Virus record (IMG/VR): IMGVR_UViG_3300045242_000144
Location: 1-36,980 of that record
Direction: 5' to 3' (one strand)
Source of the DNA: a virus
DNA: 36,980 nt
The translations under genes and the position numbers were made by a program. A model generated the notes under the pieces. The model saw only the letters and a list, made by a program, of their open reading frames with translations, was not told where the DNA came from and ran no database searches. Below, piece after piece: positions 4,973 through 36,980 of the stretch (position 1 is the first letter of the stretch; every line of letters starts with the position of its first letter).

Positions 4973-5173
4973 CTATATTTAGGGGAACTCGAAATGGAAG
5001 AGGTGGTTCGCGAGTTCTCACTTTCGCGGGCGGCGTTGGCTGAGTTGGCTGAGACATCAGGAGGCGAGGGCCACAATAAAATCTTCGGGGTCAGGTTCTA
5101 TGAGGTTAAGTCCGAAAGCCATCTGAACCTATCGCCCTTCAGTGCGGAAGTCGTGCGGAAACGGTTCCCCTGA
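4964..5173 (+). pseudogene. 3' part of the phage gene split by cassette B
   Basis: The frame from ATG 4964 reads MIPLYLGELEMEEVVREFSL and continues to a TGA at 5171-5173 (69 aa). The ATG is inside the right terminal repeat of the cassette, 5 nt after the cargo stop, and a GGAG lies 11 nt upstream. It could therefore be translated as a separate C-terminal polypeptide. The motif IFGVRFYEVKSESHL is preserved, so the reading frame has not decayed. The function is unknown. Confidence 0.6.
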
Positions 5174-5216
5174 GCGATGCGGTACTTCACGAGATGGGCT
5201 TGAAGGGGGAGCAAAA

Positions 5217-7169
5217 ATGAAACCACAAAAAGCAATTGTCCGGTCTCAGGCTCTCGCCGAAATGATCGCGCTGGACCAGATCGAGCCCGTTTCAATCGGC
5301 CAGCCAAGAACCGTTTTCAACGAGGCCAAGCTCCAGGAGCTCGCCGACTCGATCAAACAACGCGGCGTGATCGAGCCGATAATCTTGAGGCCTCGGGTCT
5401 CCGCTTTCGGCGTGATGCAAAACACGAAGGGCAAACCGCAGGTAGTCTTGCTATCGAACGAAGCCGATAACCTCGTCACCTGGACCGGTCCGGTCTGCAA
5501 GACTCCCGCCGAGGCCGAGAAGATCGTCGCCGACAAGAACGCCGCGCTTTCTCCCTACGAGCTGGTGGCCGGCGAGCGGCGCTGGCGAGCTGCGAAGATT
5601 GCCGACCTGAAAGAAATTCCCTCGATGGTCCGCAGTCTCGACAACAAAGCGGTGCTCGAAATGCAGTTGATCGAGAACCTCCAGCGCGAGGACCTGTCGC
5701 CGCTCGAGGAAGCGCGTCACTTCAAGCGGCTGATTGCCGAGCACAATCACACGGCCGAGAGCCTGGCGGCGAAACTGGGCAAGTCGCGTTCGCACGTCTA
5801 TGGAATGCTCAAGCTGTGCGAGCTGCCTCCTATCGCGGCCGAAGCGCTGTCGAAGGGCGTTATCTCCAAGTCCCACGCCGAGCTGATAGCCGGGGTTCCC
5901 AATGAAAAAATGCGGGACCTGTTCGCGAGGGATATTCTCGACGAACTTGAGGAAGACGAGACGCTCGAGGATTTTGAGAAAAACGAATGGGCAGAAGTAA
6001 TGTCGCTGCGGTCGGCGAAACGGCATCGCGAATCGACTTTTATGGTGCAGCTCAAGGGTGCTTCGTTCTCGAAGACGGACGCTACATTGGTCCCGGCGGC
6101 CGGGGCGTGCACAGTTTGTCCGAAGATGACGGGCAACGATCGAGACCTGTTCCCGGACGGCCGCGCCGATATGTGCACCGATCCCGAGTGCTTCAGTGCA
6201 AAGAAGACTGCCAATGCGGAGCGCATTGCTTCCTTGGCCCAGGGGCAAGGCCTTAAGGTACTCGGTGCGAAGGAAAGCGCCGCGCTGTTTCCCTACGGCG
6301 AAAGGCTGAAGCACGGGAGCGCCTATGTGGATCTGGCAGAGAACTGTGTCGACGACAAAAAACACCGCTCGTTCAAACAGCTTCTCGGGGATAAGGTCAA
6401 ACCGGTGATTGCCTTCGATCGCGAGGGAAAGCCGCACAGGATAGTCAGGAAGGAGGATGCGGCGCCGGTCCTGAAAGAGAAGGGAATCGTCGATCGCAAC
6501 GTCAGTCCAAACCGCGCCCACGATACTTATGCGGAGCAGGAAAAACGCCGACGATTGAATGAGCGAATCAGGCTGCTGGCAATCGAGAAGGCACTCAAGC
6601 TTTTGGCAAAAAAGAAATGGGAAAAGGTCGATCTCGTATTTCTCGTACCGGCGCTTGCCGGAGCCCCAAGGGACCTCCGCCAGCTCTTCGAAGTCCGCGG
6701 TGTCAAACACGTCTATGATGCGGATATCACCAGGCTGTCGGCGGGCATCAAGACCGACGAAGAGGCCATAACGCTGGCGATGCAGGTTATTGTAGGCTCC
6801 GGGCTGGGTCAATGGGCGCGTGGTTATTCGCACTCGCTCTCGGCCAAGAAGAACTCCGAGAAGGTGCTCAAGCTCGCAAAGATCACTCTTCCCTCACTTG
6901 TCCTCCAGGCGAAGCGCGAGCTGGCGAAGCCTAAAAAGGTTCCCGTCTCAAAGAAGAAAACCGAGTCTCCGAAGGTTGATCTCCATCAAGCCGATTGTGT
7001 AAGGTTTCTGACGGCGATTCCGGTAGGCGACCCGAACTTCAAAAAGCACCTCGAACACGCATCCATCGAGGCGTTGAAAGTCGCGGTTCGCGTGAAGACT
7101 GTCACAAAGACGAACAAGGCCCGTCTCGAGAGTCGCCTCCGAGCGCTCCAAAAGGAGTCCACGAAGTGA
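5217..7169 (+). CDS. Long ParB/Spo0J-like protein
   Basis: The 650-aa protein starts at ATG 5217 behind AAGGGGGAG. Residues 18-140 form a ParB N domain, with GERRWR (119-124) and ENLQRE (153-158). An insertion of about 45 residues separates the VIEPIILRP strand from YELVAGERRW. A helix-turn-helix follows at about 178-200 (ESLAAKLGKSRSHVYGML). A later cysteine cluster (CTVCPKMTGN, MCTDPECF) is typical of long ParB-like proteins of phages and plasmids. The C-terminal 300 residues are Lys-rich with no recognised fold. ParB N domains bind and hydrolyse CTP, or act as nucleases in some relatives; the function here (partition, transcription or DNA processing) is open. No parA is seen. Its stop overlaps the next start (GTGA). 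Confidence 0.8.
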   Translation: MKPQKAIVRSQALAEMIALDQIEPVSIGQPRTVFNEAKLQELADSIKQRGVIEPIILRPRVSAFGVMQNTKGKPQVVLLSNEADNLVTWTGPVCKTPAEAEKIVADKNAALSPYELVAGERRWRAAKIADLKEIPSMVRSLDNKAVLEMQLIENLQREDLSPLEEARHFKRLIAEHNHTAESLAAKLGKSRSHVYGMLKLCELPPIAAEALSKGVISKSHAELIAGVPNEKMRDLFARDILDELEEDETLEDFEKNEWAEVMSLRSAKRHRESTFMVQLKGASFSKTDATLVPAAGACTVCPKMTGNDRDLFPDGRADMCTDPECFSAKKTANAERIASLAQGQGLKVLGAKESAALFPYGERLKHGSAYVDLAENCVDDKKHRSFKQLLGDKVKPVIAFDREGKPHRIVRKEDAAPVLKEKGIVDRNVSPNRAHDTYAEQEKRRRLNERIRLLAIEKALKLLAKKKWEKVDLVFLVPALAGAPRDLRQLFEVRGVKHVYDADITRLSAGIKTDEEAITLAMQVIVGSGLGQWARGYSHSLSAKKNSEKVLKLAKITLPSLVLQAKRELAKPKKVPVSKKKTESPKVDLHQADCVRFLTAIPVGDPNFKKHLEHASIEALKVAVRVKTVTKTNKARLESRLRALQKESTK

Positions 7170-30572: not shown

Positions 30573-32321
30573 ATGTCCGCTTTTGTGCCAAAAGTTACGA
30601 TCTCCTTTGACGGGGTCAGCGATGTCGACGTGACCGGCGACGTGCGCATTGCCGACGGCGTGCGATGCCGGCGCGGCCGGGATCAGATTCGCATTCTGTC
30701 TCCGGCGATGGCTGGAGATTTTAGCTGCGTGCTCGACAATCGAAGCCGGAACTATAGCACCGATAACGGAGCTTCGCCTTACGCGGGATCTCTGATTCCA
30801 GGGCGCACGGTGAAGCTCTCGGCGATCGGCGACCCTGCCTTTGCGATATTTGCCGGATTGGTCGACAACTTCCAGAACCTCCCGAGTAAGAGCCAGCTCT
30901 CGGTTGGTGTGCCGGCGCTGGGGATGCCGTCGCGGCTGGTCGGCAAGAAGGTGTCGACGGGGCTCTATCCCGATATCACGGTCGATGTTGCAATCGGGAT
31001 CATACTCGACTCGGTAGGATGGCCCGCGGATCAAAGGCAATTGGCGGCGGCCGACACCACGCTTCAGTGGTTTTGGCTCGACGACGAAGACGCTTTCAGC
31101 GCGATTCAAACGCTTCTGTTGACGGAGGGACCGGGCTCGGCGTTCTACGAAGCGGGCGATGGCACGCTGGTATTCGAGAACCGCAATTATCGCACGACGA
31201 CGGCGCGAAGCAAGGCTCCGGTCGAGACCTTTACCGACGACGATATCTGGGACTTCAAGCCGGACCTTCAGTACAAGGACGTTATCAACGTCTGCAGCGT
31301 GCAGACTAAGGAGCGCCAGCTTGCGGACTCGCGTTCGATCGTGTGGAGCCTTCCCGAAGCGTTGGTGTTGGCGCCTAACGAGCTGCGGAAGGTAATCGCG
31401 CGCGGGAGCGATCCGTTTACGAGCGGGCTATTTGATGGAGCCGCCGGCATAAACGAAGTGCAGTTATTGACGAGCAATCTGATCGGCACAATCTATTTCA
31501 CTCTTACCGGTCCGAACGGCATCGCGACGGGCATCATCGACCGCACGGAATTCGACGCCGCGCACATACAGGCGGCGCTCGACGGCTCCCTGGGGTTTGG
31601 AAACTGCAACTGCACCGACGTATCGGCGGGGCACGTTCAGGTTCAGTTCGTGAACGACTATGGCTCGCAGCCGATCGCGCTTATGACTGTGATCGTCACT
31701 CCGTATGGCGACCCGCCGGGCACGGGTAATGTAGTGGTCGCGGAAACCACGCCGGGCCAGCTTCCCAGCCTGGTGGTATCGGCAGGGTTTTTGGATAGCG
31801 TCACCTGGGACCGTAACAGCGGGGCCTATATGGAATTGCGTTTCCAGGCGGGTCCGGAAGGGGCCACGGTCACGAGGGCGGACCTCTACGGGACGCCGCT
31901 CGCCGTCATTCGCACGCGGGAGATAAAGAGCACGCTGGACACGTCGGGCTCACAACGCGACTTCGGCGCTATTCCATTCGTGCTCGGCTGCCGGCCTGAA
32001 ATCGACGCCGATACGGCGCTGACGCTGGTCAACGCGGTGGCGGGTTACTACGAGCGTCCCCGGGGCACGGCCGAAGTCGTCATTTGGGGCTTGCCCGGTA
32101 TGCTGGCTCGGCTGGCCGATCGGGAGATCTCCGATTGCATTCAAATCGTCAATTATCAGTCCGCGATCAATGCAAATTACTGGATCGAGCAGATCACGGT
32201 CGAAATAATCGACGGATTGCTGCGAATGACCCTCGGTTGCGAAAGGCAGCACGTGTCAATCGTGTCGAGTGAGGATGATCAGGAGGTTACGACCGAGGAT
32301 GGGCAACTGATAAGGGCATAA
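30573..32321 (+). CDS. Minor tail / tail-tip protein
   Basis: The 582-aa protein follows the tape measure region, where distal tail and baseplate hub proteins are found. The N-terminal 250 residues contain GRDQIRILSPAMAGDFSCVL, DNRSRNYSTDNGASPYAGSL, PGRTVKL and FAGLVDNFQ, a pattern found in phage tail proteins that build the hub ring. The segment from 430 on (SVTWDRNSGAYMELRFQAGP; YYERPRGTAEVVIWGLPGML) looks like another beta domain. The assignment is supported by position and pattern. No enzyme motif is seen. Confidence 0.7.
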   Translation: MSAFVPKVTISFDGVSDVDVTGDVRIADGVRCRRGRDQIRILSPAMAGDFSCVLDNRSRNYSTDNGASPYAGSLIPGRTVKLSAIGDPAFAIFAGLVDNFQNLPSKSQLSVGVPALGMPSRLVGKKVSTGLYPDITVDVAIGIILDSVGWPADQRQLAAADTTLQWFWLDDEDAFSAIQTLLLTEGPGSAFYEAGDGTLVFENRNYRTTTARSKAPVETFTDDDIWDFKPDLQYKDVINVCSVQTKERQLADSRSIVWSLPEALVLAPNELRKVIARGSDPFTSGLFDGAAGINEVQLLTSNLIGTIYFTLTGPNGIATGIIDRTEFDAAHIQAALDGSLGFGNCNCTDVSAGHVQVQFVNDYGSQPIALMTVIVTPYGDPPGTGNVVVAETTPGQLPSLVVSAGFLDSVTWDRNSGAYMELRFQAGPEGATVTRADLYGTPLAVIRTREIKSTLDTSGSQRDFGAIPFVLGCRPEIDADTALTLVNAVAGYYERPRGTAEVVIWGLPGMLARLADREISDCIQIVNYQSAINANYWIEQITVEIIDGLLRMTLGCERQHVSIVSSEDDQEVTTEDGQLIRA

Positions 32322-36163: not shown

Positions 36164-36980
36164 ATGACGACCGATAAGAGCGATAAGATCGACGATCGCG
36201 ACAGCTCGCGACGGTATTTCTCCCAGGTGCCGAATATTGTTCACGACTTGGGATTGTCGCCGGTGGAGTTCCGTCTCTATGGCGCGTTGAAGCGTGCGGC
36301 CTGGGGCGAGGGTTCGACTTGCGAGCGATCGACAAGGGAGATTGCGGCTGAGACCGGGTTGAGTGTAGGCGCGGTGAGTGCGGCTAAGGCGCGGCTCCAG
36401 GAGCCACGGCCGGGTTCCTGCCAAGGGCCGGCGCCCTGTGGGCTCGAGGGGAAGGCTCTTATCGAAATCGCCTCGGAGGCGGGCGCCGGGAGTCCTCGGC
36501 ACCTGATCACGCTTGTGGATATCTGGCCGGAAAACGTGGCTCGCTATTCGGAACCTCAGCGTTCACGTGGTGAACCTCAGCGTTCACGTGGTGAACCTCA
36601 GCGTTCACGTGGTGAACCTCAGCGTTCACGTGGTGAACCTCAGCGTTCACGTGGTGAACCTCCTTCTTATAAGGAAGAAGAAAGAATACAAGACGGGAAA
36701 GATGGGAAAGACACACGCAATACCGCGCGTGTGCGCGAGCCCGATGCTCAGTCCCGATTCGATCTGCAGACTTGTATCGCGTTCGCCGAGACGCTTCCTA
36801 CAATCGATAAGCCGGGCGGCTACGGCACGGTCATCCATCGTTCCGGGGCTCAAGATGTTTTGATAGAGGACTGGCTTGAGCAAACACGGCGCCGCGCTTC
36901 GGAGAATCCGGGGCCGATGCCTGGCACTCGCGATGCGGAGATGCTTGAGAGGTTTCTGACGGCTGCAGCTTCGAGGGTCA
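36164..36980 (+). CDS. Replication initiator-like protein with internal origin repeats (partial)
   Basis: ATG 36164 opens a frame that is still open at the right edge (272 codons). Residues 18-80 (RYFSQVPNIVHDLGLSPVEF, RLYGALKRAAWGEGSTCERS, TREIAAETGLSVGAVSAAKA) form a winged helix of the type found in phage replication and replisome-organizer proteins. Residues 130-164 are five exact copies of EPQRSRG, encoded by five exact 21-bp repeats. The C-terminal part (RFDLQTCIAFAETLPTIDKP; TRDAEMLERFLTAAASRV) is a helical domain that could bind a helicase loader. The layout equals that of lambda O. No clear ribosome site lies before the ATG. This gene may begin a replication module after the late genes. 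Confidence 0.7.
   Translation, partial: MTTDKSDKIDDRDSSRRYFSQVPNIVHDLGLSPVEFRLYGALKRAAWGEGSTCERSTREIAAETGLSVGAVSAAKARLQEPRPGSCQGPAPCGLEGKALIEIASEAGAGSPRHLITLVDIWPENVARYSEPQRSRGEPQRSRGEPQRSRGEPQRSRGEPQRSRGEPPSYKEEERIQDGKDGKDTRNTARVREPDAQSRFDLQTCIAFAETLPTIDKPGGYGTVIHRSGAQDVLIEDWLEQTRRRASENPGPMPGTRDAEMLERFLTAAASRV
36551..36661 (+). repeat. Five 21-bp tandem repeats, probable replication origin iterons
   Basis: Units begin at 36551, 36572, 36593, 36614 and 36635 and are identical (GAACCTCAGCG then TTCACGTGGT), followed by a partial sixth (GAACCT). Each unit with the next forms the palindrome GTTCACGTGGTGAAC, so there are five. A purine-rich, less GC-rich stretch follows (36662-36712). Iterons with dyad symmetry inside the initiator gene, next to a weaker-melting stretch, are the structure of lambdoid origins. 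Confidence 0.7.

Follow-up and report, generated by a model that had tools for sequence, protein, structure and literature searches.

Among the closest described systems are the origins of lambda and Stx phages, which lie within the central part of the initiator gene O and in which 19-bp imperfect inverted repeats, O dimers, and an AT-rich tract all have a part; extra iterons add amino acids and thereby lengthen O (PMC7466680). Four iterons are annotated in O of the lambda record, at spacings of 20, 24, and 23. Their cores fit a 5-N5-5 pattern, best in CCCTC-AAAAC-GAGGG and imperfectly in the others, and the next 60 nt are 68% AT, versus 52% in the gene. Among plasmids, the origin of pSK41 lies inside its rep gene (PMC5703833), and RepA_N plasmids have semi-palindromic iterons (PMC7145576). 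The locus described here, at one end of a viral contig, is very probably a lambda-O-like phage replication initiator gene with its own origin inside the gene.

The window, that is, the whole stretch of DNA that was analyzed, is the complete IMG/VR record IMGVR_UViG_3300045242_000144 (36,980 bases, classed as linear), and its genes for a terminase, portal, major head protein, major tail protein, and tape measure identify a tailed phage. From ATG 36164, a frame stays open up to the contig end (Table 1). TRF detected just one tandem array anywhere in the window, with period 21 and 100% matches, and the 15-bp dyad GTTCACGTGGTGAAC (GTTCAC-GTG-GTGAAC) was located five times within it, bearing out the first-pass annotation of five exact 21-bp repeats, each with a dyad, in one gene. 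The frame from ATG 36164 likewise confirmed that these repeats also encode (EPQRSRG)x5, and chance is excluded as their source. Past the last dyad, the next 60 nt are 58% AT, 45% A, and 70% purine (against 40%, 19%, and 55% elsewhere in the gene), matching the purine-rich, less GC-rich stretch that had been described there.

Table 1. Features of the initiator locus (positions in the window)
Feature	Position	Strand	Basis or remark
Initiator gene	36164..36980	+	Open frame, 272 codons visible, truncated by contig end; phrog_270 match
N-terminal winged-helix domain, predicted DNA binding	36164..36550	+	AlphaFold2 model; winged-helix structure matches; weak HTH_36 match
Array, 5.3 exact 21-bp units, predicted initiator-binding sites	36551..36662	+	TRF; GC3 0.14 vs 0.72
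Dyad 1, GTTCACGTGGTGAAC	36561..36575	.	Exact copy
Dyad 2	36582..36596	.	
Dyad 3	36603..36617	.	
Dyad 4	36624..36638	.	
Dyad 5	36645..36659	.	
A-rich, purine-rich tract, putative DNA unwinding element	36660..36719	+	Base composition
C-terminal part, beginning only (incomplete), presumed helicase/loader contact	36764..36980	+	Model helices; role inferred from lambda O

Since the contig stops inside the gene, most of the C-terminal part is out of view, as would be any helicase or loader gene that follows. Joining the contig end to the contig start gave a stop after ~40 codons and hence no sign of circular continuation. Cumulative GC skew kept rising over almost the entire contig and did not turn near the array, a reading limited by the position of the gene at the contig end. 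Elsewhere in the window, one more perfect GTTCA-N5-TGAAC dyad occurs at 31641-31655, in a tail fiber-like gene (~0.04 expected by chance per window).

When compared with PHROGs, the window protein matched phrog_270 (replication initiation protein) over residues 12-80 (E 2.8e-5), and it showed a weak match to HTH_36 that fell under Pfam's cut-off. The PF04492 profile (Phage_rep_O, lambda O) left it unmatched at E up to 1: the protein probably works as lambda O does but is no PF04492 member by HMM. Solved structures gave no sequence match. An AlphaFold2 model placed a winged helix ahead of the array (residues 20-130, mostly pLDDT >85), a low-confidence linker across the repeats, and helices at 201-209, 228-247, and 255-271 of the C-terminal part, these at low to moderate confidence. 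The model thus upheld the proposed placement of the repeats between a winged-helix N-terminal domain and a C-terminal part, the latter only partial here, and the window combines two features of the working principle: in-gene dyads between the DNA-binding and C-terminal parts and an AT-rich tract after the last site. Structure comparison of the winged helix returned the RepA_N initiator domains 4pql (Z 9.0), 4pt7 (Z 8.8), and 5kbj (Z 8.3) at an rmsd of 5-6 Å, with other winged helices scoring equally; because many winged helices match, the fold alone is unspecific. Together, the phrog_270 match, the winged helix, and dyads followed by an A-rich tract as in lambda O support the original reading of a lambda-O-like initiator with an in-gene repeat origin.

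For the window phage, we infer binding, dimers, unwinding, and origin activity. A dimer of the winged-helix domain would bind each 15-bp GTTCA-N5-TGAAC dyad, and the five dyads, which their 21-bp steps place on one helix face, would bring the dimers together in an O-some-like complex. Under the stress of such a complex, the adjoining A-rich tract could open; the C-terminal part, by analogy with lambda O, may recruit the replicative helicase or its loader. The EPQRSRG repeat would then be a tolerated by-product, a flexible linker that merely stays in frame.

Paired GTTCA-N5-TGAAC dyads were found in at least 119 stretches of phage contigs, against 5 in a complete control scan with a scrambled dyad of the same build. 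An O-like winged-helix initiator gene lay over the array in 82 of 121 GTTCA loci, as counted with an HMM grown from the same GTTCA set, and in 0 of 5 controls. Independently, PHROGs placed 52 of 108 motif-selected ORFs in phrog_270, with many in O-like families; only 6 of the 108 matched PF04492. The 13-row alignment A1, in which row L133 is short by a few residues, served only as search profile and HMM seed. Single exact dyad copies in viral contigs (39 loci) were at about chance level and were left unused, and the CTTCA variant occurred in 44 contigs, only 5 times over O-like genes.

Statistics were computed over 74 non-redundant initiator genes (<70% identity) with 322 sites, a median of 4 per gene. 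Spacings between sites clustered at about two or three helical turns (132 of 247 at 21-24 and 48 at 30-33, with 13 at 25-29 and 9 at 34-41); 43% were no multiple of 3, and more than one reading frame was used in 49 of the 74 genes, which argues that the helix rather than the codon mainly sets the spacing. In 68 of 73 genes, AT content was higher in the 60 nt past the last site than in the remainder of the gene (0.635 versus 0.502, p 2.5e-12), a rise that comes mainly from A on the coding strand. Because the selection pattern demanded exact half-sites and, in one pair or more, gaps of 3-25, the half-site logo is partly built in, which applies neither to the spacing troughs nor to the A-rich tract. 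Immediately after the initiator, 12 of 56 relatives had a gene for a DnaB-like helicase, at least 7 one for a DnaC-like loader, and 2 one for a P-like loader.

A search for related loci with the window protein alone found none. Two relatives (L270 and L271) were picked up by protein profile only, and both carry in-gene arrays: CTTCACC...GTGAAG-type dyads, three at 21 bp, in the first and (A/G)TTCACC...TGAAC, five times, in the second. The change of the outer pair in L270 is symmetric (CTTCA...TGAAG), as recognition of the dyad by a dimer would predict. Among more distant phrog_270 genes, of Bacillota and Pseudomonadota, chosen blind to the motif, albeit by a crude choice of the central ORF, GTTCA arrays were absent almost throughout; the motif therefore marks only part of phrog_270, and the notion that all phrog_270 initiators use GTTCA was rejected. 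By tblastn against annotated phages, the window ORF matched just the Salmonella phages Sasha and Sergei, in an unrelated repeat protein with PPVARAE units; this low-complexity match was discarded. The Sasha locus itself (L041, KX987158) has a different in-gene tandem array, its 21-bp units coding PPVARAE within a hypothetical protein gene.

In contigs of bacterial genomes, 90 stretches had three successive dyads; their record titles name Actinomycetota, Bacteroidota, Pseudomonadota, Campylobacterota, Chloroflexota, Bacillota, Cyanobacteriota, and Fusobacteriota, among others. Many lay within initiator-like genes and others elsewhere; as intergenic arrays and ParB-like genes also bear it, the dyad is not exclusive to initiators. 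ParB_N-like genes of Streptomyces and relatives (L167, L177, L202, and L208, the last at L208:3275-4054:+) had three in-gene GTTCA-N5-TGAAC dyads at 24-bp steps, just 5' of a helix-turn-helix-like stretch, with centers that vary between genes. Intergenic triplets of L182, L200 (L200:2280-2341), L243, and other Alphaproteobacteria adjoined MarR-like HTH_24 and NusG-like genes, and one adjoined a heparinase-like gene; these are perhaps operators of a surface-polysaccharide locus. Bacteroides and Prevotella (L205, L195, L214, and L240) had intergenic triplets with steps of ~19 and 34 bp; close to the L205 triplet is an RteC-like gene, suggestive of a conjugative element. HNH-endonuclease-like genes of Anaeromyxobacter (L175, L222, and L224) had dyads at 39-bp steps (GSTVEL peptide) ahead of the HNH domain and are probably unrelated to replication initiators.

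Could the repeat be a matter of the protein, with (EPQRSRG)n, a flexible linker, under selection or drifting and recent slippage the sole reason for the identical DNA? All five units are identical, spacer included, and copy number differs among near-identical genes (3, 4, and 7 sites in genes with 95 to 100% identical N-terminal domains), which together point to recent tandem expansion; Salmonella phage Sasha, moreover, is an example of unrelated in-gene repeats with another peptide. Codon spelling, however, is extreme for the window phage: given the peptide and the phage's own codon usage, the half-site codons have a chance of ~2e-4 per unit, and peptide selection does not account for an array whose GC3 is 0.14 when that of the window's genes is 0.72. 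Relatives, too, retain the dyad despite changes of peptide and reading frame. The dyad can be read in two of three frames, as V[HQ]xxN and [RCSG]SxxE, the third being barred by a TGA. Paired GTTCACNNNGTGAAC occurred in five viral contigs, every dyad set in-gene and 3' of a DNA-binding N-terminal part, and the peptides over the dyads differed (e.g., VHHVN, SLGEQ, and SPGEP). What is conserved in relatives is GTTCA-N5-TGAAC, around a variable center. A protein-level repeat is on this evidence highly unlikely. Of the two sources first offered for the exact identity, selection on DNA and recent expansion, each holds in part, the dyad being kept as DNA and the identical spacer pointing to expansion. 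Relatives with the linker and without the DNA repeats had been named as contrary evidence; the opposite was seen, as linker peptides diverge while the DNA dyad persists, and both close relatives found by protein only bear dyad arrays.

That the dyads are operators, bound by the winged-helix protein to control transcription of its own gene only and not replication, is improbable. Winged helices of such kind are common in transcription regulators, and the setting of the Alphaproteobacteria triplets is operator-like; the window array, however, lies deep in the gene, away from the promoter, and is followed by an A-rich tract, and the relatives match replication-initiation families, often with helicase or loader genes next. 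A different role for the dyads is suggested by CACGTG, which forms the center of parS: they could be a partition or centromere site read by the phage's own ParB-like protein. The window does encode such a protein, of 675 aa, between the terminase and portal genes (5142-7166; phrog_4715, E 8.7e-35), and some Streptomyces ParB-like genes bear the same dyads in-gene. Yet no TGTTTCACGTGAAACA-like 16-mer within 3 mismatches was found anywhere in the window, the array travels with winged-helix initiator genes, and the variable dyad center of the relatives makes CACGTG incidental, so that we consider a parS-like site exceedingly unlikely. The hexamer had been highlighted in the first-pass annotation; it proved not significant, just the window phage's version of a variable center, and was rejected as an E-box or parS center.

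The working principle of a lambda-O-like initiator with an in-gene origin is textbook lambda, and the window gene alone is of an already known kind. The broader proposal, on which our confidence is evenly balanced, is that GTTCA-N5-TGAAC is one lineage-crossing origin address, read by a large, diverse class of winged-helix phage initiators across many host phyla and kept as DNA whatever the peptide, while sister lineages keep the 5-N5-5 build and switch the half-site. A GTTCA address common to many phyla appears unreported within the literature searched, which was largely without subscription papers: the motif string had no match there, and other wording led mainly to lambda/Stx, plasmid, and unrelated work. 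Were the proposal true, the origins of many uncultured phages could be located by sequence alone, and phages with a common address might compete for one another's initiators or interfere with them. The breadth seen (one dyad, two reading frames, very different proteins, and many phyla) offers an easy way of testing sequences for phage origins and for initiators, many of which are annotated just as hypothetical or HTH proteins, and makes the GTTCA initiators a natural choice for studying how initiator specificity is retained or switched.

The winged-helix N-terminal domain of the window protein may be related in fold to that of the RepA_N plasmid initiators (pSK41 and pTZ2162), but these are a plasmid family, with middling Z, an rmsd of 5-6 Å, and no sequence match found. 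Alcaligenes phage Piluca gp25 resembles the window protein as a winged-helix initiator with GTTCAGTTAGTGAAC three times in-gene at 22/23 bp, and the next genes are annotated as DnaA-like and DnaB-like; gp25 belongs to a different subfamily, however, and is annotated as a hypothetical protein only. As in lambda O and ori-lambda, the origin of the window phage would lie mid-initiator gene, with 15-bp 5-N5-5 dyads and an AT-rich tract directly after them, whereas the half-site is another one, PF04492 is unmatched, the units are exact tandem copies at 21 bp, and a P-type neighbor would lie beyond the contig end. PF04492 O proteins of Acinetobacter and Pasteurella phages carry in-gene repeats at the same place as the window gene, in 22/23-bp steps, and in several of these phages a helicase or P gene comes next. 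Their half-sites differ from that of the window (GTCGG-AAAAT-CCGAC, and GTTAA- and GTCAA-like forms), and the Acba_1 repeat set is only weakly palindromic; a Moraxella-type PF04492 member does carry GTTCA. With place and step retained in these PF04492 proteins under other half-sites, the geometry of the dyad is more widely common than the half-site itself.
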